Below, in pieces: positions 4,550 to 39,663 of a stretch of 39,663 nt of DNA. The stretch lies in contig JAUSPN010000039.1 of assembly GCA_030656555.1 (NCBI GenBank), positions 1 through 39,663 on the forward strand. The letters run 5' to 3'. The notes under the pieces are model-generated. The model did no database searches, was not told the origin of the DNA, and saw only the letters and a list, made by a program, of their open reading frames with translations. Position 1 is the stretch's first letter; each line of letters begins with the position of its first letter. Both the position numbers and the translations under genes were made by a program. The DNA comes from Candidatus Desulfaltia sp. Lineage in GTDB: Bacteria > Desulfobacterota > Desulfobacteria > Desulfobacterales > ETH-SRB1.

Positions 4550-5122
4550 TTGAATACTATTTATCCGGTTATACTTGCGGTTCCTGACGACAAGAGAAAC
4601 CTTTCCAGTAAAAACAGGACATTGTATCTCAGCAGGCATGCGAGGTATGCCCTTGAAATATCCGCCCAAAAGAGCCGCATTCATTTGGGTGATCTTTTAA
4701 AGGATAAAAACGGCGTTCCCATGCCTTGCGAAGGAAATTACTGGTCCCTTTCGCATAAACCTGCATATGTTGCGGCAGTAGTAGCTCATGAAAGAATCGG
4801 CATTGATATAGAAGAAATACGGACATGCTCAGAGTCTCTTTTCAGGAAAATAGCGGATCACAAAGAATGGGGGCTTGCTGATACAGATAAATTTAAGCTG
4901 TTCTTTCGATACTGGACCGCCAAAGAGGCGGTGCTTAAGGCTGTAGGGACAGGCCTGAAAGATCTTTCAAAATGCAAAATCACGCAGATTATTGATGAAA
5001 ACAATCTTGCCATAGACTATATGAATAAAAGATGGCTGGTTGAGCATCTCTTTTTTAACAGGCATATTGCATCGGTAAATAAAGGTTTATATGATATTAA
5101 GTGGTCAGTGGTCAGGGGATAG
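4550..5122 (+). CDS. 4'-phosphopantetheinyl transferase, Sfp/AcpT type
   Basis: This 190-residue protein transfers the 4'-phosphopantetheine arm of CoA to a Ser of acyl or peptidyl carrier proteins. Recognisable motifs are YWSLSHKPAYVAAVVA, GIDIEEI (Mg-binding acidic residues) and YWTAKEAVLKAVGTGL. It starts with TTG at 4550, ten bases after CGGAG and 17 bp after the synthetase stop, so it is probably co-transcribed. The last residues (SVVRG) are encoded by GGTCAG-type repeat sequence, so the C-terminal tip is probably repeat-derived and not conserved. Which carrier protein it serves is unclear, since no polyketide or fatty-acid genes lie nearby. Confidence 0.85.
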   Translation: MNTIYPVILAVPDDKRNLSSKNRTLYLSRHARYALEISAQKSRIHLGDLLKDKNGVPMPCEGNYWSLSHKPAYVAAVVAHERIGIDIEEIRTCSESLFRKIADHKEWGLADTDKFKLFFRYWTAKEAVLKAVGTGLKDLSKCKITQIIDENNLAIDYMNKRWLVEHLFFNRHIASVNKGLYDIKWSVVRG

Positions 5123-5124
5123 AG

Positions 5125-5284
5125 GATTAAAGGATTAAGGGATTAAGGGATTAAGGGATTAAGGGATTAAGGAATTAAGGGATTAAGGGATTAAGGGATT
5201 AAGGGATTAAGGGATTAAGGGATTAAGGGATTAAGGGATTAAGGGATTAAGGGATTAAGGGATTAAGGGATTAAGGGATTAAGG
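5125..5284 (+). repeat. Octanucleotide tandem array (GATTAAGG)x20
   Basis: Twenty contiguous 8-bp units of GATTAAGG; only two vary (GATTAAAG at 5125 and AATTAAGG at 5173). The array starts three bases after the PPTase stop codon. Its last unit supplies the AAGG of the AAGGAG Shine-Dalgarno for the downstream gene at 5294. Copy-number changes would not alter any reading frame but would change the leader length and the number of AAGG-like ribosome-binding sites. No spacers are present, so it is not a CRISPR. Confidence 0.97.
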
Positions 5285-5293
5285 AGTATTGAT

Positions 5294-6874
5294 ATGCATG
5301 TAACATTTTATGGCGCGGTCAGGGAAGTCACTGGATCGATGCATCTTATTGGAACCGAGACCAACAAGATACTGCTGGATTGTGGAATGTTTCAGGGACG
5401 ACGGAAGGAGACCGAACAAAAGAACAGAGTGCTTTCTTTTGACCCGCAGATTATTACAAATGTAGTGCTTTCGCATGCCCATATAGACCATTCCGGCCGT
5501 ATTCCCCTGCTGACGAAAGATGGGTTTAACGGAAATATCATCTGCACGCGAGCCACGGCCGATGCCTGTGAATATCTACTGAATGATTCCGCTTATATTC
5601 AGGAATCAGATGCAAATTATCTTAATTATAAAACCGTCCGTTCATATTTATATGGGTTGCTGACATCTTCGGATAAGAAAAAGAAATCAGACAGTGACAA
5701 TGAAAAGATAAAAAAAATTTTAAAGAGCCATCGTAATACTCTTAACACGGAAAAAATTAACGAATATATTGAGAAATACCATATAGAAGGTATCCGCCCA
5801 CTATATACTGTTGTTGAGGCACAGCAATCTTTTAAATATTTTAACGGTTATCCATATCTTCAACCTGTAACAATCGGTAAGGATACGACATGTACTTTTT
5901 ATGATGCAGGTCACATTCTTGGATCAGCCTTTTCCATTATCAAAACCATTGAAAACGGCAGATCATATACTATTTGTTATACCGGTGATATAGGCAGATT
6001 TGATGTGCCGATACTAAAAAATCCGACCCTGAACTTTCACGAAGAGGACAGGGACATAGATTTGCTGATTATGGAGAGCACATACGGCAATCGTTTGCAC
6101 GAACCGATGAAGGATTTAAAACAACAATTGAAGCAGGTGCTTATCGATACTTTCAACAGGGGTGGTTCTGTTTTAATACCCAGTTTTGCATACGGACGCA
6201 CACAGGAGATTTTATATTTTCTTCACAAACTCTATGATGAGGGAGAAGTGCCGCGGAGGCCGATTTATGTCGACAGTCCTCTTGCGACTAAATTAACAGG
6301 GGTTTACGGTGAACATCCCGAAGTTTATGATATGGAAACCAACGAAGTCTTTTTAAAGAACGGCAAAAACCCTTTCATATTTGACCAGGTCCGTTTTGTG
6401 GGATCGGTTGATGAATCGATGGATCTCATGCGGGATGAAAAACAGCATATTGTTATTGCCGCTTCCGGGATGTGCGAGGCCGGACGCATTTTGCACCATC
6501 TGCGTTATAAAATACATAATGCAAAAAATACCATTCTTATTGTCGGTTATATGGCTCAAAACACTCTTGGCCGTCGAATACAGGAAAACGGCGAAACATA
6601 CGAGAAATCCGGCAGAAAGGATCCGCCTCCACAGCTTAGATTCCTTAATAAAATTTATCCGCTTAAAGCCCATGTTACAAGGCTGGGCGGGTTCAGCGCT
6701 CATGCCGACAAAAATGAAATGCTTCGATTTGTCAAAGAGTCAAACTTACGCATAAAGAAGATCGCGGTAGTCCATGGAGAAGAGGATCAGTCGATTTTAT
6801 TTGCCAACCAGCTCGAAAATGAAGGTTTTTCGGTAGTTGTGCCCAGGGTTGGAGAGACAGTGTGGATAAAATAA
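5294..6874 (+). CDS. Metallo-beta-lactamase/beta-CASP RNase-like protein
   Basis: The protein (526 residues) is a beta-CASP metallo-hydrolase related to the CPSF73/Ysh1 and bacterial RNA-processing nucleases; it probably cleaves RNA with two zinc ions in the cytoplasm. Visible motifs are HAHIDHSG (residues 61-68), DAGHILGSA, TGDIGR, ESTYGNR, the beta-CASP segment IPSFAYGRTQE, IVIAASGMCEAGR, GYMAQNTLGR and GGFSAHADKNE, and a terminal HGEE. A Lys/Ser-rich stretch around residues 120-160 lies between the first zinc motif and the rest of the lactamase fold. AAGGAG before the ATG comes partly from the octamer array upstream. Its substrates are unknown. Confidence 0.88.
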   Translation: MHVTFYGAVREVTGSMHLIGTETNKILLDCGMFQGRRKETEQKNRVLSFDPQIITNVVLSHAHIDHSGRIPLLTKDGFNGNIICTRATADACEYLLNDSAYIQESDANYLNYKTVRSYLYGLLTSSDKKKKSDSDNEKIKKILKSHRNTLNTEKINEYIEKYHIEGIRPLYTVVEAQQSFKYFNGYPYLQPVTIGKDTTCTFYDAGHILGSAFSIIKTIENGRSYTICYTGDIGRFDVPILKNPTLNFHEEDRDIDLLIMESTYGNRLHEPMKDLKQQLKQVLIDTFNRGGSVLIPSFAYGRTQEILYFLHKLYDEGEVPRRPIYVDSPLATKLTGVYGEHPEVYDMETNEVFLKNGKNPFIFDQVRFVGSVDESMDLMRDEKQHIVIAASGMCEAGRILHHLRYKIHNAKNTILIVGYMAQNTLGRRIQENGETYEKSGRKDPPPQLRFLNKIYPLKAHVTRLGGFSAHADKNEMLRFVKESNLRIKKIAVVHGEEDQSILFANQLENEGFSVVVPRVGETVWIK

Positions 6875-6908: not shown

Positions 6909-9900
6909 ATGGGCGGCAATATAAATTCGTTGGGTATATGCCTGGGGGCATCTACAGTTTCACTTGTCTGGATGGAGCTTGAGCAGGGCAGGGATGGAGA
7001 AAACAAAACAAAGCCTCGTGTGGTTAAATATTTACTTCATTCACACGAGGGAAATCCAAAGCAAACATTGCTTTCAGCTCTCGAGTCGCTGGATATTAAT
7101 TCATACGACAGGATTGCAGTGACAGGAAGGAGATTTCGTAACCTTGTAAAACTGTCATCCATATCCGAACCTGAAGCAGTGGAATACGCATACGGTTTTG
7201 TTAAACCAGCGGACATTGCATGTCCGGCAGTTGTTTCCGCAGGCGGGGAGACCTTCATGGTATATGCTCTGGACGGTCAGGGGCAGATATCCAATGTTTT
7301 GACCGGCAACAAGTGCGCATCCGGAACCGGTGAATTCTTTCTTCAGCAACTTCGCAGAATGAAAGTAACGCTGGAAGAGGCAGCCCGGTGGGCGGCTGCG
7401 GAAGAGCCATATCAGCTTTCCGGGCGTTGTTCGGTTTTTTGCAAATCCGACTGCACCCATGCAACCAACAAAGGCATTCCTAAATCAAAGGTAACCGCCG
7501 GGCTTTGCAAAATGATGGCGGAGAAAATACTTGAGCTTTTAAAAAAGGTGCAAAGGGAAAACATCATGATTACCGGTGGCACTGCTCTTAATCAGATGAT
7601 GATTGAGTATCTGCGCAAAGATATCGCCGGTATTATTGTTCCTAAGGAAGCTCCGTATTTCGAAGCTCTTGGAGCTGCTCTCTGGGCGCTGGAAAACGAG
7701 ACCGCCGAATTTCCTGGGATGTCGGATTTATTAAGAACAGAAGTCACATCGTTTGACACACTTATGCCCCTTATGGATTTTAAAGAAATGGTTGAATTCA
7801 AGACTGTCGAAATGGGGGATGTCCGGCAGGGGGATGAATGCATACTGGGGCTTGACGTTGGTTCGACAACAACAAAGGCGATTCTTCTGAGGATCGACGA
7901 TAATGCAATGCTTGCGTCCGTTTATCTGCGTACTGACGGCGATCCTGTTGAAGCTTCCCGTAAGTGTTATGATTCGATTCTTAAGCAGATAAGTAAAAAG
8001 GTAAATCCTGATGAAATAAGCATAACAGGACTGGGTGTTACCGGCTCGGGTCGCCAGATAGCCGGTCTCCATGCGCTTACAAAAGGGATTATTAATGAGA
8101 TAATTGCCCACGCGACTGCAGCAGTGTATTTCGACCCCAAGGTGGACACAATATTTGAGATAGGCGGACAGGATGCAAAATATACTTATATCACAAATGC
8201 CGTGCCATCTGATTATGCGATGAACGAAGCCTGTTCCGCCGGCACGGGTTCTTTTCTGGAAGAGTCCGCATACGAGACCCTGGGCGTGAAAATGGAGGAT
8301 ATTGGAGATATTGCTTTTCAGGGCAAGTGCCCGCCTAATTTCAATGATCAGTGCGCCGCATTTATCGCATCCGACATAAAGAATGCTATTCACGAAGGTG
8401 TGAAGCACGAAGATATTGTAGCAGGTCTGGTCTATTCCATCTGTATGAACTATTCAAACAGGGTTAAGGGGAACAAGCCCATAGGAGAGAAAGTGTTTAT
8501 GCAGGGAGGGGTATGCTATAACAGGGCGGTCCCGTTTGCCATGGCCGCGCTTGTGGGCAAGCCTATAGTCGTTCCTCCTGAGCCTGGGCTTATGGGTGCT
8601 TTTGGTGTTGCGCTTGAGGTCAAGAAAAGGATTAAAACGGGATTAATCGAAAAGAAGATTTTTGACCTGGAGGCTATGCTAAAACGTGAGGTGAAATACG
8701 GAAAACCGTTTATATGCAAAGGCGGAAAGGAAAAATGTGACCGACGCTGCAATATAGCTTTAATCAAACTGGAAGGAAAGAAATATCCCTTTGGCGGAGC
8801 CTGCAACAGATACTACAATTTAAGGAACAAGGTGAAACATGACGTGGAAAAGCTTGACCTTGTTCGTGTAAGGCAGCAATTAATTTTTGATAAGTATGGA
8901 GGCAAACTGTCTGAGGATGGCAGGAAAAAGCAAAGAGGGAGAATCGGAATAAACAGAAGTTTCCTTGTTAACACTTTTTATCCGCTTTATTCCACATTTT
9001 TTACTCAGCTGGGGTTTGAGCCTGTTGTGCCTGATTTCCCTTTTAAAGAAGGAACGGATCAGAAAGAGGCGGCCTTTTGCTATCCTGCAGAATTGGCTCA
9101 TGGTTTTTTCTATGCACTGATTTATATGGACAATCCTCCGGAGTTCATATTCCTGCCTCAGTTCAAAGCTGTTCCTGCTCAAAACGGTTATGCAAGCTCA
9201 CAGGTTTGTCCTTTTGTTCAGGGTGAAACATTTTATCTCGGGGCTACATTCAGGGGAAAACTGGATGAACTTAAAAGCAGAGGAACAGAAGTATTGACAC
9301 CGCTGCTTGATTTGACAGAAGGGCTGGAAACCGCAGAAAAGCCCCTTGTTGAAACAGCCTTAAAGATGGGTGTCGGCAGGAAAGAGGCTGGAAAAGCTTT
9401 TGAAAAGGCCCTAAAGAAGCAGATGGAATGCATTGCCGAGATGAAAAAGATCGGCAATAAAGCCATTGAAGAGCTGGAAAAGGATCCGGATAAAACAGCG
9501 GTGGTGATATTTGCACGGCCTTACAACGGATTTGTTAAGGAAGCGCATATGGGAATTCCAAACAAGCTTGCATCAAGGGGCGTTCTGGTAATGCCGTTTG
9601 ATTTTCTTACATTTGATGATGAGAAAACGAAACGCCATATGTACTGGGGAATAGGACAAACCATATTAAAGGCGGCAAGGGTTGTTAAGAATCATCCTCA
9701 GCTGTTTGGGACTTATATAACAAACTTTTCCTGCGGCCCGGATTCATTTATAGTCGGATATTTCAGGAGTCTTATGGGGCAAAAACCGTCACTGACCCTT
9801 GAACTGGACAGCCATACGGCAGATGCCGGAATTGAGACCAGGGTTGAGGCGTTTCTTGATATAGTAGCAACATACAGGCAGCTTTTGGAAGAGAATATGA

Positions 9901-12250: not shown

Positions 12251-13452
12251 TAAAGAATTCTTATTTCATCCAAACCCGGCGTAAGCCTCTTTCCCCCTTC
12301 AGGGGTTACCTGGAAGGTATTTTCTATACCAACAAGCCCTACACCTTTGATCCCTTTTTTTGGCTCTATTGCTATTACCATATTTTCTTTGAGCGGATAA
12401 TCTATTTTTTTTGCTATGGCGGGAAACTCGTTAATGACAAGTCCGATGCCGTGCCCGAGAAACCGGACCTGATTGTCCCCAAAACCCATGAAATTTGATT
12501 CAAAGCTTTCCGGAACAACAATCTCATCAAATATCTGCTCGAATATCCTTGAAGGGAGTTCCCCGGGTTTTAAAAGTTCCTGAATCTTTTTCTGAATGGC
12601 AAGGCAGGTTGCATGGGCATTCATGGCTTCCTGTAGCGGTTTGCCAAGAGAGAATATTCTTGTTTTATCCGTATAATACCCATTATACCCGAAGCCTGTA
12701 TCAATATAAATGATATCTCCGCGCTTTAATCTTTTATTACCCCCGAGAAAAGGAAAGGCCGGGGACTGACTATTGACGCCGCCGGGGCCGTCAAAGGCGG
12801 AGGGATGATTACCGGATTCACCGAAGCAGATGTTCCCTCCGAACAGTTCGCTGTTGAATCCTGCCATGCGCGTGATGCCCATGGAGCCGAGCTTTAACAT
12901 TTCGCACACGATCAAAGTTCCGAGTTCCCATTCCGTTATTCCTTCATGAATCAGATCAGGTATAATTGCGTAAACCGTTTCGTGTCGTTTGCCGGCCTCT
13001 CTGATCTGAGCGATCTCATAGGCTGATTTTACGGACCGTATTTCTGTCAGGGCAAAGCCGATGTCGCTGAATGTAGTGGCCGGAAGCGCCTCTTTGAGCA
13101 TCTTGAACAGGCGCAGCGGAGTGGTATTTTCATCAATGCCGAGCATGGAAAAGTCGTAACCGTAAGCGTTAAGTGCCGGCTGGATATCTTTGAACCTTTT
13201 AAATTGTATCAGGTTTTCAAGCGGGGACTCTTGTTTCCCCATTTCAAGGCTGCGGCGTATAAAAAAAACAGGATCACCCGAGTCAGGGATAAAGAGCACC
13301 CCGTTCTGCATTGTCCCGCTGTAGTAAAAAATATTGATTTTATCCTGAATCAGGCAGCCGGGCAGATTGCACTCACCAAGCTTGGCTTGAAGGTATGAAA
13401 TCCTTTTTTCAATTTCTTTTTCAGGGAGGATATGAGTATTGTCTTTTTCCAT
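12247..13452 (-). CDS. M24 family Xaa-Pro dipeptidase/aminopeptidase-like protein
   Basis: This is an M24 (pita-bread fold) metallopeptidase of 401 residues with a creatinase-type N-terminal domain followed by the catalytic domain. The five metal ligands can be placed: the two Asp in IDTGFGYNGYYTD (about 251 and 262), His in LGHGIGLVINE, Glu in AIEPKK and Glu in GIENTF. This predicts hydrolysis of Xaa-Pro bonds, although catalytically diverse relatives (lyases, creatinase) share the fold. The frame is open up to 13521, but the ATG at 13452 gives the normal family N-terminus and leaves a roughly 100-bp divergent promoter region against the radical SAM gene. No strong Shine-Dalgarno is visible. 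Confidence 0.85.
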   Translation of the reverse strand: MEKDNTHILPEKEIEKRISYLQAKLGECNLPGCLIQDKINIFYYSGTMQNGVLFIPDSGDPVFFIRRSLEMGKQESPLENLIQFKRFKDIQPALNAYGYDFSMLGIDENTTPLRLFKMLKEALPATTFSDIGFALTEIRSVKSAYEIAQIREAGKRHETVYAIIPDLIHEGITEWELGTLIVCEMLKLGSMGITRMAGFNSELFGGNICFGESGNHPSAFDGPGGVNSQSPAFPFLGGNKRLKRGDIIYIDTGFGYNGYYTDKTRIFSLGKPLQEAMNAHATCLAIQKKIQELLKPGELPSRIFEQIFDEIVVPESFESNFMGFGDNQVRFLGHGIGLVINEFPAIAKKIDYPLKENMVIAIEPKKGIKGVGLVGIENTFQVTPEGGKRLTPGLDEIRILY

Positions 13453-29803: not shown

Positions 29804-29832
29804 GTATTTGTTGAAAATTTTATTACCATATT

Positions 29833-29860
29833 ACCATATTACCATAATTTTTTTTGTCAA
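29833..29860 (-). promoter_or_regulatory. Promoter of the tRNA-Sec gene
   Basis: On the minus strand TTGACA (29860-29855) and TATGGT (29838-29833) are 16 bp apart, about 30 bp upstream of the mature tRNA 5' end. The following leader is AT-rich, with three direct copies of ATTACCAT on the + strand. Confidence 0.6.
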
Positions 29861-29991: not shown

Positions 29992-31152
29992 ATGATAAAC
30001 AAAGATAGGCTGGCGGAAACATTCAGGCTCCTTGTCGGCATTGACAGTGTTTCAAAAGAAGAAGCCGCTGTTTGCTGTGAAATTAGAGAAATTCTAAAAT
30101 CTATAGGAGCTAAGACAGTTGTTGACGAAGCCGGAGACAGGACAGGGAGCAACACAGGCAATCTTATTGTCAAATTTGACGGAAACCGGCTCGATGAAAG
30201 CTTGCAAATAGAGCCGCTTCTTTTTAATGCCCACATGGATACGGTTGAACCAGGCAGAGGTATAAATGCGGTATTAAGAGACGGAGATTTTACAAGCAGC
30301 GGTTCAACAATACTTGGAGCAGACGATAAAAGCGCAATCGCCGTTCTTTTAGAGACAATGAGAACTCTCCAGGAAAAAGATCTGCTGCATTGTCCTATAG
30401 AGATTGTGTTTACTATCTGTGAAGAGATTGGTCTTCTGGGTGCAAAGAATCTTGATTACAGTCTTATCACCGCAAAACGCGGTTATGCTCTGGATGCAAC
30501 AGACACGGAAGGGATTGTGACCCGGGCTCCTGCCTTAAACAGGCTAAAGTTTAAAATACACGGCAAGGACGCCCATGCTGGAGCAAATCCTGAAGACGGA
30601 ATAAATGCAATTGCGATTGCAAGCAGAGCAATCGCCGGTCTTAATATCGGCCGGATTGATAGCGAAACAACATGCAACATAGGCACAATAGAAGGGGGTA
30701 TTGCTGTCAATATAGTGCCGAATCTTGTAACTGTTAATGGGGAAGTCAGAAGCCATAATGCTGAAAAACTTGATAAAATTACAAATGACATAGTATTATC
30801 TTTTAAGAATGTCGTTGAAAATTATACAAATTCGTCGGAAGATAAACTTCCGTACCTTGAAGTTTTTGTGGATAAGGAATTTCTCAGCACAAATATTGCC
30901 GTAGATCATCCTGTTGTGCTTTTAGCCCAAAAAGCTGCGGCAAATCTCGGGATAAAGATGGTTGCCAAGACAACCGGAGGATGCTCGGATGCCAACATAT
31001 TTTTTGAGAAAGGAATCATAACAGGGGTATTGGGCACGGGGATGCATGACATGCATACTGTTAGGGAATCAATACGGCTTGATGATATGGTAAAAACAGC
31101 GGAACTTTTACTCGAGATAATAAGACTTCATTCGTCAGGGATTAAGGATTAA
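29992..31152 (+). CDS. M20 family metallopeptidase, peptidase T-like
   Basis: This 386-residue zinc aminopeptidase of family M20 resembles peptidase T (tripeptidases). The metal-binding residues are visible: NAHMDTV (His 81, Asp 83), LGADDKSA (bridging Asp), CEEIGLLGA (catalytic and ligand Glu), ALDATDTEG, and HDMHTVRE near the end; the dimerisation lid contains HAGANPEDGINAIAIAS. It probably degrades short peptides in the cytoplasm. The frame begins at 29938 inside the inverted repeat, but ATG 29992 after AGGGG is the better start. The C-terminal GIKD and the spacer to larC are made of GATTAAGG-like sequence. Confidence 0.88.
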   Translation: MINKDRLAETFRLLVGIDSVSKEEAAVCCEIREILKSIGAKTVVDEAGDRTGSNTGNLIVKFDGNRLDESLQIEPLLFNAHMDTVEPGRGINAVLRDGDFTSSGSTILGADDKSAIAVLLETMRTLQEKDLLHCPIEIVFTICEEIGLLGAKNLDYSLITAKRGYALDATDTEGIVTRAPALNRLKFKIHGKDAHAGANPEDGINAIAIASRAIAGLNIGRIDSETTCNIGTIEGGIAVNIVPNLVTVNGEVRSHNAEKLDKITNDIVLSFKNVVENYTNSSEDKLPYLEVFVDKEFLSTNIAVDHPVVLLAQKAAANLGIKMVAKTTGGCSDANIFFEKGIITGVLGTGMHDMHTVRESIRLDDMVKTAELLLEIIRLHSSGIKD

Positions 31153-33642: not shown

Positions 33643-34581
33643 ATGCAGTTTTCAAAAAAAGATATTCTGGACATGGAATCGCTTTCTGTTGATGAAATTA
33701 CCTTGATTCTTAATACTGCACAGCAAATGAAGGAAATCTCAAAAAGGCCTGTAAAAAAGGTTCCTACTTTGCGAGGCAAGACAATAGTGCTTTTTTTCTA
33801 TGAACCCAGCACTCGTACCCGTACATCTTTTGATATTGCGGCAAAGCGGCTCAGCGCCGACAGTATTTCAATATCCGGAAGCGCCAGCAGTTTAGTAAAA
33901 GGGGAAACACTTATAGATACAGCGCGGAACCTTGAAGCCATGAACCCTGATGTGATTGTTATGCGTCATTCTATGGCAGGCGCTTCACATATGCTGGCAA
34001 AAACTGTCAAGACATCCATTATCAATGCAGGCGACGGCATGCATTCGCATCCAACCCAGTCGCTGCTCGATCTTATGACTGTCAGAGAAAATAAGGGAAG
34101 GATTTCAGGTCTGCGCATTGCTATAATCGGCGATATATCTCACAGCAGAGTGGCGAGATCGAATATAATAGGGTTTACAAAAATGGGCGCAGACGTCGTG
34201 CTGGCCGGCCCGCCAACCATGATTCCAAAAGGAATTGAAACCCTTGGGGCTTCCGTCACATATAATGTGAATGATGCTGTTTGTAATGCTGATATCATAA
34301 TGATGCTCAGGATACAAAAGGAGCGGCAAAAAGGCTTTTTGTTTTCGACTGAACGTGAGTATTCAAAGGTGTATGGGTTAACAATGGAAAGAATGAAAGG
34401 CGCTAAAAAAGATGTGCTGATCATGCATCCCGGGCCGGTTAATCGGGGCGTTGAAATAGCGCCGGAGGTCGCGGATGGACCATACTCGATAATTATTGAT
34501 CAGGTAACAAACGGCGTTGCCGTTCGTATGGCTCTTTTATATCTGACTGCAGGAGGTGTGCGCAATGTTGATGCTGATTAA
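33643..34581 (+). CDS. pyrB: Aspartate carbamoyltransferase, catalytic chain
   Basis: PyrB condenses carbamoyl phosphate with aspartate, the committed step of pyrimidine synthesis. The 312-residue sequence carries the carbamoyl-phosphate-binding motif [22 protein letters not shown], the HPTQSLLDL loop, [22 protein letters not shown] and [11 protein letters not shown]. No pyrI regulatory subunit is adjacent; pyrC follows with a 17-bp overlap, as in fused or paired PyrB-PyrC systems where both enzymes interact. Confidence 0.96.
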
Positions 34582-35845
34582 GGGCGGAAGAGTAATTGAT
34601 CCCGGCAATTTAGATGGCATCATGGATATTCTGATTGAAGATGGGAAAATAGTTGAAATAAAAGAGCAGGGGTCAGGGGTCAGGGGTCAGGGGTCAGGGG
34701 TCAAAACAATTGATGCTTCAGGCAAAATAGTGACGCCCGGGCTGATTGATATGCATGTACATTTTCGTGAACCGGGGCATGAATATAAAGAAACCATAGA
34801 AACAGGCTGCATGGCCGCGGCCTTTGGCGGTTTTACGGCGGTCTGTACAATGCCGAACACAAACCCTGTAAACGACAACAGCCAGGTTACTGAATATATA
34901 TTAAAAAAGGCCGGCCTTGCGGACACTGTTCGTGTTTACCCTGTCGCCGCAATAAGCCCCGGGCTTCAAGGGAAAGGCCTTTGCGAATATGGGGATTTGA
35001 AGAATGCGGGAGCTATCGCTGTTTCTGATGACGGAAACCCTGTAACAGACAGCCGGCTGATGCGCAGTGCGCTGGAATATGCAAAAGGATTCGGTCTTCT
35101 TGTAATATCCCACTGCGAGGATCTTGATCTTACTGTAAACGGGGTTATGAATGAAGGGGCGGTTGCGACACGAATGGGGCTTGGCGGAATACCAAATGCT
35201 GCTGAAAGCATTATGGTTATGCGTGATATAGCTCTTTGTGAATTAACAGGGGCTTCTCTTCATATTGCTCATGTGAGTACACTTGAATCTGTGCGCGCGA
35301 TAAGGGATGCAAAAATCAGGGGCGTTCGTGTGACCGCTGAAACAGCGCCGCACTATTTTACGCTCACAGAGGATGCGGTGACAGGTTATAACACAAAGGC
35401 AAAGATGAATCCCCCCTTGCGTTCGGACCGGGACAGGGAAGCGGTGCTTGAAGGATTGTCCGATGGAACTATTGACGTTATTGCCACAGATCATGCGCCC
35501 CATTCTTCCATTGAAAAAGATGTTGAATTCGACATTGCGGCAAACGGCATGATAGGGCTTGAGACATCACTTTCCCTGGGTTTAAAGCTGGTTGAAAAGG
35601 GCGTAATAACAATCATTGATCTTATAGCAAAGATGTCAACAAACCCTGCCTGTATTTTAGGGCTTGATCATGGCATAAAAAAAGGCAAGCCTGCCGATAT
35701 AACCATCATAGACACCGACATAACCTATAACGTGGATGCCGCCGGCTTTCAATCTTTAAGCCGCAACACCCCGTTTGACGGCTGGAATATGAAAGGAAAA
35801 GCGGTTCTGACCATGGTAGGCGGGAAGGTCGTGCTTGGAAGATAA
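34565..35845 (+). CDS. pyrC: Dihydroorotase with an in-frame heptanucleotide repeat
   Basis: This is a class I (426-residue) dihydroorotase, which cyclises carbamoyl aspartate to dihydroorotate. Zinc and substrate motifs: [46 protein letters not shown] and [14 protein letters not shown] eight bases before ATG 34565 decides the start; the frame also allows GTG 34556. Around residues 35-46 the stretch [12 protein letters not shown] is encoded by five copies of a 7-bp repeat, lengthening the loop before [16 protein letters not shown]. All catalytic residues remain. Confidence 0.95.
34667..34701 (+). repeat. Heptanucleotide tandem repeat (CAGGGGT)x5 inside pyrC
   Basis: Five perfect contiguous copies of CAGGGGT lie in the 5' part of the pyrC coding sequence. 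As 7 is not a multiple of 3, gain or loss of one copy would shift the reading frame. A related GGTCAG repeat encodes the C-terminus of the PPTase at 5101-5119. Confidence 0.97.
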
Positions 35846-37502
35846 TTTTCTGAAGAGAAGAATTCAATGGTTGATGTTTTTCAGGGTTGTAATTGCAACC
35901 TTCCTGCTTGGAATTGCGACTTTTATACGGATTAAAGCAGGAGAATCATCTTCGCAGACAGCGTATGCGCCAATATATTTCATTGTAGCATTAACCTATC
36001 TTTTTTCTTTTGCCTGCCTTTTTATTCCAAAGACAATAAAAAACATCAGGGTAAACATATATCTGCAAAGCCTTTTAGATGTTTTGCTTATAACCGGACT
36101 TGTATATGTAACAGGCGGAATTGAGAGCATCTATTCTGTATTGTACCCACTTGTTATTATATATTCATCGCTTTTTTTAGCGGGCAGAGGAGGCTTAATT
36201 TCAGCCTCAGCCTGCAGCATATTTTACGGGCTGCTGCTTGATCTGGAATACTACGGTATTGTTATACCCATATACCAGTGGGGCTATAATTACGACCGCG
36301 ATGCAGGTTATGTTTTTTCGAGAATTTTTGTCCATATTATATCTTTTTATATTATTGCATTATTGACAAATTATGCTGTTAAACAGGAACAAAAGACCAG
36401 AAAGCTTCTCGTGGAAAAGGAAAGCGCTTTTGATCAGCTTGACCTGCTGTACAAAAGTATAATCGAGTCTGTAAATACAGGTATTTTAACAGTCGATCTC
36501 CATGGAAACATAAAATCCTTTAACACCGAAGCTGAAAAGATCACCGGTTTTTTGCATTCCGAAATTATAAATAAAAAAATCGATGATATCTTCCCTGTCC
36601 TTTCAAAAATGTTGAATAAAAAAGGCCAGTGGAAAGCTGGAGACAGATTTGAAGTTGCTGATTCAGGTAAGATACTGGGCTGTTCTGTTTCCCCACTTGT
36701 TGACGGCAACAGAGAAAAAATAGGCAATATTCTGATCTTTCAGGATTTGACGGTTATTAAAGAAATGGAAGCTCAGATTCAAAAAAACAAACGGCTTGCA
36801 TTTGTTGGTGAAATGGCCGCAGGTCTTGCCCATGAAATAAGGAACCCTCTTGCATCAATCAGCGGGCCGATTCAGATGTTAAGCAAAGATTTAAAGCTGG
36901 ACGAAACAGACAGAAGGCTCATGCAGATCATTTTAAACGGGAAGGATCGACTTGAAAGCTTTGTTAAAGACTTTCTTCTTCTGGCTCGGCCTAAACGGTC
37001 TGAGCGAAAAGATATTGACGTTAAAGCCATTATAGATGATGTGCTTGAATCTCTTCACTTTAACCCTGAATGGAGCGAATATATTGAAGTGATTAGGAAT
37101 TTGTGCGATCAGAACAATATATATGGTAACAAGGCGGAAATAAGACAGGTAATCTGGAACCTGATTTTAAATGCTGTTCAGGCGATGCCTGAGAAAGGCA
37201 TACTGAAAATAGAAACCACCTCAAATGAAAAAAAATATCTTGAGATATTGATAAGCGATAATGGATGTGGAATCGAAGCAAAAGATCAAGACAAAGTATT
37301 TGAACCTTTTTACACAACAAAGAAAAACGGCACAGGCCTTGGAATGGCAATCGTAAACAGGATTGTGGAAAGCCACATGGGTAAAATCACAATTAAAAGC
37401 AAACCAGGAAAAGGCACGGATTGTATAATATCGCTGCCTGTAAAAGAGTTAGAAGTGCCTGTAACTCAGGTTCACAGTTCACGGTTCAAGGTTCAAGGTT
37501 AG
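35835..37502 (+). CDS. PilS-like membrane sensor histidine kinase
   Basis: The 555-residue kinase has about six N-terminal transmembrane helices (residues 12-190), a PAS domain (about 205-310; [20 protein letters not shown]), and a HisKA/HATPase core: phospho-acceptor His 333 in [15 protein letters not shown]-box [11 protein letters not shown]1 DNGCGIEAK and G2 [16 protein letters not shown]. This architecture matches PilS-type sensors that phosphorylate a sigma54 regulator, and such a regulator (PilR-like) follows. It starts at a TTG overlapping pyrC by 11 bp, after GGAAGG. Its last dozen residues ([11 protein letters not shown]) are encoded by GGTTCA repeats, so the native C-terminus was probably replaced or extended. 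Confidence 0.88.
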
Positions 37503-39465: not shown

Positions 39466-39504
39466 CGTTCACGGGTTCAGAGGTTCAAGGTTCAAAGGTT
39501 CAGG
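39466..39504. repeat. Degenerate GGTTCA tandem repeat downstream of the PilR-like gene
   Basis: Five to six GGTTCA/GTTCAC units in tandem, related to the repeats at 37469-37500 and 38008-38036. The final 223 bp of the window hold this repeat, the AGCTAA inverted repeat and no gene that I can support. Confidence 0.85.
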
Positions 39505-39508
39505 ATAA

Positions 39509-39584
39509 AGCTATTAGCCATTAGCTCTTAGCTGAAGGTGTTAACTGTTTGATTTTTTAAGCTAAAGGCTAATTGCTAAAAGCT
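39509..39584. repeat. AGCTAA-type inverted repeat
   Basis: Arms of 25 bp (39509-39533 and 39560-39584) are inverted copies matching at 21 of 25 positions. Each arm is built from three to four degenerate GCTAAN units. It may terminate the PilR-like transcript. Confidence 0.85.
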
Positions 39585-39663
39585 AACTGCTAACAATCTT
39601 CGATTTAAAAATATTGGTGCATAGCAGTTGCCCGGCGCTCCAAGAAAAATAACCCTGAACCTC

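Follow-up and report, generated by a model that had tools for sequence, protein, structure and literature searches.

An octamer array between a PPTase gene and a beta-CASP gene of Candidatus Desulfaltia is one copy of a dispersed tandem repeat family anchored at stop codons

What does a near-perfect tandem array contribute to a gene when it fills the space ahead of that gene and supplies part of its ribosome-binding site? We addressed this question in a window of 39,663 nucleotides, by which we mean the whole analysed stretch of Candidatus Desulfaltia sp. DNA (contig JAUSPN010000039.1 of assembly GCA_030656555.1); it is contig C75 of a 2.73 Mb genome assembled in 107 contigs. Tandem Repeats Finder placed a GGATTAAG octamer array at 5124-5284 (forward strand; period 8, 20.1 copies, 98% matches), and a unit-by-unit count resolved 5125-5284 into 20 octamers, of which 18 read exactly GATTAAGG, the odd ones being unit 1 (GATTAAAG) and unit 7 (AATTAAGG). 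The 16-mer GATTAAGGGATTAAGG occurred 16 times in the window, every time within the array, and was absent from 100 dinucleotide shuffles of the window. The array is sense to both flanking genes. It begins 1 nt past the TAG stop codon (5120-5122), its anchor, of a 4'-phosphopantetheinyl transferase (PPTase) gene (Pfam ACPS; 4550-5122, forward), the last codons of which hold 2.3 copies of an AGTGGTC heptamer (5100-5115, forward). At its other end, the array runs into AAGGAG (5281-5286, forward), the Shine-Dalgarno sequence of the downstream gene; this motif sits 7 nt ahead of the ATG at 5294 and takes its first four bases from the end of the last repeat unit. The downstream gene (5294-6874, forward) encodes a beta-CASP/RMMBL metallo-hydrolase (TTHA0252-like ribonuclease) with Lactamase_B, Beta-Casp, and RMMBL domains; its best match among solved structures was the Thermus ribonuclease TTHA0252, and the named relatives above 57% identity came mostly from Desulfobacterales or Deltaproteobacteria MAGs. 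An earlier note on this sequence had described just such an arrangement, with 20 octamers (18 of them near-perfect) leading from the PPTase stop into the AAGGAG of a beta-CASP RNase gene, and our analysis confirmed it: the array abuts and overlaps the Shine-Dalgarno sequence. The same note went further and proposed that the array builds this Shine-Dalgarno sequence and that its copy number could tune expression.

The exact count of 20 units is not certain, because the array is about 160 bp long and the assembly consists of 107 contigs. A short-read assembly could have inflated the count, and the contig of one congener, G003, ends inside the array. However, the junction also carries arrays of this family in four further genomes of the genus and in two genomes of a sister genus, and the single-contig genome G026 bears an 11-unit GGATTAAG array elsewhere, which argues against an assembly or sampling artefact; we regarded this explanation as highly improbable.

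Across seven species, the PPTase/beta-CASP junction carried 20, 10, 6, 3, 2, a split 4, and 0 units. In particular, the junction held 10 units, mostly GGATTAAA, in G004 (beta-CASP protein identity 93%), 6 units of the GGATTAGA and AGATTAGA kinds in G002 (92%), 3 units in G005 (90%), 2 units in G009 (77%), 4 units with some 140 nt of other sequence between them in G007 (77%), and none in G013 (74%); in G003 (91%), the contig end falls inside a repeat unit. The distance from the PPTase stop to the beta-CASP start was 171 nt in the window versus 82 nt in G004, 42 nt in G002, and 21 nt in G005. The orthologous PPTase stop lies within the repeat in G004, G002, G005, and G007, and the last residues of the PPTase vary accordingly. 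The opposite end behaved differently: AAGGA(G/A)TATTGAT stands ahead of the ATG in G004, G002, and G007, which have 4 to 10 units, and an altered form of it is found in G005, G003, and G009, including the species with 2 or 3 units. In other families of the order, no array was found upstream of the beta-CASP gene at any of 19 loci (those of 20 with at least 160 nt upstream), whereas a Shine-Dalgarno-like 4-mer was present at 18 of these 19. Because the start-proximal segment is kept or only slightly altered whatever the number of units, we concluded that the PPTase stop is where the array grew, reaching up to a Shine-Dalgarno sequence that already existed; its stop-codon end moves, its start end is largely kept, and it is between the two that the array grows and changes. 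These results do not support the proposal that building the Shine-Dalgarno sequence is what the array is for. In contrast, the expectation of length polymorphism was borne out, although at the level of species only, and the near-identity of the units fits the recent expansion that had been suggested from it. A difference in unit number between genomes at one site, seen here across seven species, is also a property of phase-variable repeats before start codons.

A ladder of weak Shine-Dalgarno sites might nevertheless hold the 30S subunit before the beta-CASP start, so that the number of units, which does vary between species, would tune RNase expression. We calculated duplex energies of three unit copies with an assumed 16S tail sequence and ranked them among the 70 orderings of the same letters. 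The window unit gave -8.6 kcal/mol (rank 4 of 70), whereas the upstream regions of 532 genes had a median of -5.8; the beta-CASP gene's own region from -20 to -3 gave -8.7, which is stronger than 75% of the 532 genes. The array overlaps the Shine-Dalgarno sequence, its unit pairs as well as the gene's own region, and the rank of the unit leaves room for the ladder. However, sister unit types gave -6.0 (GGATTAAA), -7.8 (GGATTAGA), -8.8 (GGATTAGG), and -2.6 (AGATTAGA), and G004, with half the units, had the same -8.7 at the beta-CASP start. When two copies were used, the unit gave -6.0 versus -5.8 for the reversed unit, and the three-copy comparison was the more favorable one to the ladder. The claim that every unit resembles a weak ribosome-binding core thus holds for the unit of the window but not for some of its sister units, of which AGATTAGA pairs least. 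On this test, which is a weak one, the junction does not look like a site of maintained anti-Shine-Dalgarno complementarity.

The distribution of the repeat places the junction in a broader context. The pattern GGATTARRGGATTARR matched 46 times in this genome, compared with 5 matches of a control pattern read backwards, and the pattern-match list gave GGATTARR arrays at about 20 separate places, 20 by our count. Among the 58 genomes searched, this one included, all seven of the genus and both of the sister genus had 14 to 104 matches each; four others (G008, G026, G027, and G054) had 5 to 20, five (G021, G022, G037, G052, and G053) had 1 or 2, and the remaining 40 had none. A second family member in the window, GGATTAAGGATTAA (31139-31152, forward), ends in a TAA that is the stop codon of the ORF 29992-31152. 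These results indicated that the window array belongs to a lineage-specific family of short tandem repeats, dispersed over the genome, with the core GGATTA followed by one or two purines. The window array is the longest copy in this genome. Of 395 genomes sampled from the phylum, only G026 and this genome itself contained the stricter 24-mer of three window units, and within this genome it was confined to the window array and one place in contig C71; deep conservation of the array was rejected on these grounds. Dispersal by phages was likewise set aside, since the 24-mer occurred in one contig of an IMG/VR scan, which indicates no vector. Two long isolated arrays in more distant genomes, located with cruder gene calls, were also sense: 11 GGATTAAG units 44 nt behind a stop codon in G026 (L228), and about 19 units of the GGATTAGA and GGAATAGA kinds 52 nt behind a stop in G008 (L229). 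A literature search, with most subscription papers outside its reach, turned up neither this octamer nor comparable repeats of Desulfobacterales among the papers listed.

Where the family sits relative to genes was determined in a sample of 69 arrays (24 from G000, 26 from G005, 9 from G002, and 10 from G003). Genes were called by our own codon-usage script, rather than by a published caller, across 676 kb of this genome and in the stretches around arrays of G000, G005, G002, and G003; its choice of starts rewards Shine-Dalgarno-like words and may pull starts towards arrays, and stops are unaffected. The G005 array of the window junction, the G002 arrays at contig ends (C175 and C210), the arrays of G001 and G004, and most of those of G006 stand outside the sample, and six of the 69 were excluded from the position counts because a called gene was missing on one or both sides. 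Among the 63 arrays with called genes on both sides, co-directional gaps accounted for 49 sense and 5 antisense arrays, convergent gaps for 6, and divergent gaps for 3; none of the 69 was scored as lying inside a called gene. Of the 49 sense arrays, 45 began no more than 50 nt from the upstream stop, versus 25.3 expected under uniform placement, and 42 were closer to the stop than to the start, pooled counts that are not independent because orthologous loci were counted once per genome. A cleaner test, limited to co-directional arrays that begin past the stop, gave 23 of 27 within 50 nt versus 12.0 expected, and G000 alone had 20 sense and 2 antisense arrays, with 18 of the 20 within 50 nt of a stop (10.6 expected). 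As a cause of the sense bias, replication strand could not be told apart from gene direction. The stop codon was contained in 23 of the 55 arrays behind a sense gene and abutted by 2, a figure that is partly trivial in that any frame entering an array must stop there; such a stop reads GAT-TAA or GAT-TAG, the sole way in which a GGATTARR unit yields one. A G006 array, with cruder gene calls, also lay behind a sense stop codon, at -7 nt. Thus, the arrays of the family lie in sense orientation and are anchored at the preceding gene's stop codon, either immediately behind it or spanning it.

Other repeats offered a comparison. An AACCGTG/AACTGTG family in the same sample had 10 sense and 6 antisense arrays spread over the gap and showed no stop anchoring, whereas the few AAGATTG and AGGTTC arrays looked stop-proximal as well, so that the stop rule may not be confined to GGATTA. 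We could place 18 of 45 congener arrays against the G000 sequence; several of them mapped to one shared repeat, some mapped to gaps with other repeats or with none (L211), and some alignments looked unreliable, and we drew no insertion rule from empty sites. The placement counts also bear on the Shine-Dalgarno ladder: a start codon lies within 20 nt of the array's end in only 9 of the 49 co-directional sense cases, and the 6 arrays in convergent gaps have no gene following on that strand. This tie to the preceding stop does not support a family that exists to build the next ribosome-binding site, and we considered tuning of the beta-CASP RNase by a ladder to be improbable.

The sense bias and the proximity to stops would, however, suit an element that acts at the 3' end of the transcript, and this is the main rival to a nearly neutral repeat. 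The G-rich sense repeat would form a quadruplex in the RNA, or a hairpin with an inverted copy downstream, and would thereby terminate transcription or block 3' exonucleases. In support, an inverted unit was found within 200 nt downstream of 12 of the 69 arrays and upstream of none, with both arms of a pair counted, and four of the five antisense arrays face such a unit within 200 nt. Four G3N5 quadruplex motifs fit without overlap into the window array itself, and the predicted energy of the leader fell from -15.9 to -27.7 kcal/mol when quadruplexes were permitted in the folding. Against this role, the G3 quadruplex motif was found in none of the four orthologous arrays tested, neither the window array nor most of the others have an inverted partner within 200 nt, and the longest array sits in a 171-nt gap between co-directional genes, an odd place for a terminator. 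A role as a 3'-end RNA element therefore appeared quite unlikely on balance, and its narrower form, a quadruplex conserved at this junction, was rejected because the motif is lacking from all four of those orthologues. Arrays that face an inverted copy downstream, and that could form a hairpin behind a gene, were seen at L121 (G000:C71, about 13040-13120), L197, L203, and L215; divergent inverted pairs of GGATTARR arrays were not seen.

We also determined the period spectrum of exact tandem runs with at least 8 matched positions in 90.5 kb of intergenic sequence (the window and 40 other stretches, 676 kb in all), with a first-order Markov control. Period 7 gave 76 runs (2.1 expected) and period 8 gave 42 (1.9 expected), whereas periods 3 to 6 gave 2, 6, 3, and 1 (1.6 to 2.4 expected). 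Periods 9 and 10 gave 22 and 14 runs, and longer ones (14, 16, 19, 21, and others) were raised as well; with at least 12 matched positions, there were 22 runs at period 7, 11 at period 8, 1 each at 9 and 10, and none at 3 to 6. The common 9- and 10-bp words reached at most 1.9 copies and mostly fewer than two full ones, so that this part of the peak is weak and we give the size class of the unit as 7-8 bp. The runs were concentrated between genes, with 42 period-8 runs in 90.5 kb of intergenic sequence versus 13 in 585.8 kb of coding sequence, and dozens of intergenic unit types occur in this genome, several of them recurring. The sharp intergenic peak at 7 and 8 indicated that the octamer array is a single instance of something more general. 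Among the other arrays of the window, a GGTTCAA array (37483-37500) extends to the stop codon with which an ORF ends at 37502, which accords with the stop anchoring of the octamer; 3.2 copies of TATTACCA lie between genes at 29821-29846, as do decayed GGTTCAA and GCTAAAAGCTAACT types at 39474-39593. Elsewhere, in L121 (G000:C71), eleven TCAATCT copies at 7259-7335 overlap a putative short ORF.

One array of this size class is coding. In the dihydroorotase (PyrC) ORF at 34571-35845, a loop is encoded by a heptamer array (34667-34703), and the loop was heptameric in all ten genomes compared (L252-L261), with the frame kept and a homogenized unit that differs by species: TCAGGGG in the window, TCAGGGT in G003, TCAAAAC in G004, TCAGAAG in G005, TCAAAAT in G002, TCAGAGG in G001, TCAGAGG and TCAAAGC in G006, and mixed units in G007, G009, and G013. 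As judged from match lengths, the loop was of equal length in seven of the ten and 21 bp, or three heptamers, longer in G001, G006, and G013. An exact heptamer run was present in pyrC at 14 of 15 loci from this taxonomic family and, with other units, at two (L271 and L272) of the 15 loci taken from other families; among the matches listed, PyrC-type units also form arrays elsewhere in these genomes. The swap of units could have come about by local slippage and selection for frame in several rounds, or by replacement from other arrays in one. The second possibility leads to a more radical proposal, in which a process of a new type writes and rewrites arrays with 7-8 bp units and hardly ever with 3-6 bp units: units from a shared vocabulary would be installed in sense orientation at gene 3' ends, and whole arrays would swap their unit between sister species with position, and coding frame as in pyrC, preserved. 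The mechanism would then be ectopic replacement of units or their templated synthesis, and not local slippage of the usual kind. We advance the new process tentatively, as rather unlikely.

Several features of the octamer have precedents. The closest are the heptamers GGGAATC and GGGGA(C/T)T, known from Xanthomonas and Nostoc (Rehm et al. 2015, PMC4692102) and described there as dispersed, G-rich, over-represented between genes, preferentially on the coding strand within 50 bp of stops or overlapping them, single or in inverted pairs, variable in length between close relatives at kept positions, and endowed with quadruplex-forming G tracts and a preference for four units; that study found no function for them. 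The octamer arrays are similar in being dispersed and G-rich, in lying between genes and on the coding strand, within 50 nt of a stop or overlapping it at 45 of the 49 co-directional sites, in occurring singly or as inverted pairs, and in differing in length between relatives at kept positions, and GGGATTAA shares GGGATT with the Nostoc unit. In contrast to those heptamers, the period is 8 rather than that of the 7-nt GGGNATC or GGGGA(C/T)T, the unit carries a stop codon, the phylum is different, and the predicted quadruplex capacity is not kept between the window array and its tested orthologues. Next in closeness are the TAACTGA heptamers of Beggiatoaceae, Cyanobacteria, and Bacteroidetes (MacGregor 2015, PMC4679880). 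These are dispersed intergenic direct repeats co-oriented with genes, with stops in all three frames, some overlapping the upstream stop, and a suggested translational role; they are mostly forward, end a few nt before a start codon, and have little Shine-Dalgarno character. The octamer arrays are likewise dispersed, intergenic, co-oriented with genes, and stop-bearing in three frames, and some lie across the upstream stop, but their unit is GGATTAAG, and they end in AAGG and are anchored at stops, with few arrays close to a start. The tandem repeats of Borg elements, as exemplified in the available portion of PMC9879509, have units of 18-21 nt, divisible by three in ORFs, unlike the 7-8 bp units here, the coding pyrC array included. 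Thus, the octamer belongs among dispersed short-unit intergenic tandem repeats; it is a member of neither named heptamer family and behaves like that of Xanthomonas and Nostoc.

Taken together, we proposed, with a probability of roughly 0.65, that the array is a fast-turning, nearly neutral repeat that grows and turns over at gene 3' ends, and that it is probably no device for tuning the next gene. The placement and orientation of the arrays, the turnover of copy number and unit between species, and the persistence of the start-proximal segment were observed directly, and near-neutrality for the beta-CASP gene is what we infer. A seed at or just behind the stop codon would have been multiplied and cut back, with slippage or unequal exchange as the simplest presumed motor, and members of the family would gain and lose units and switch unit type at the 3' ends of genes. 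An array behind a stop would be tolerated because the sense repeat carries GAT-TAA or GAT-TAG every 8 nt, so that no reading frame stays open for more than about 24 nt; at the present junction, the short gap to the next gene means that the array runs up to a Shine-Dalgarno sequence that the lineage already had. A modest effect at the RNA level, through cistron spacing, a quadruplex, or weak 30S contact, is possible but not needed. Arrays are, however, often found at the same junction in several species, which could mean constraint and weighs against a neutral reading, and plain slippage leaves unaccounted for the recurrence of one unit at about 20 places, the sense bias, and the near-background level of periods 3-6. 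What looked like a Shine-Dalgarno ladder is a single member of a repeat family that is spread over the genome and keeps to stop codons, a rule already reported, with another unit, for unrelated bacteria. The sharp unit size of 7-8 bp, the shared vocabulary, and the array-wide swaps of units make the origin and spread of such repeats testable across close genomes, seven of which are available in this genus.
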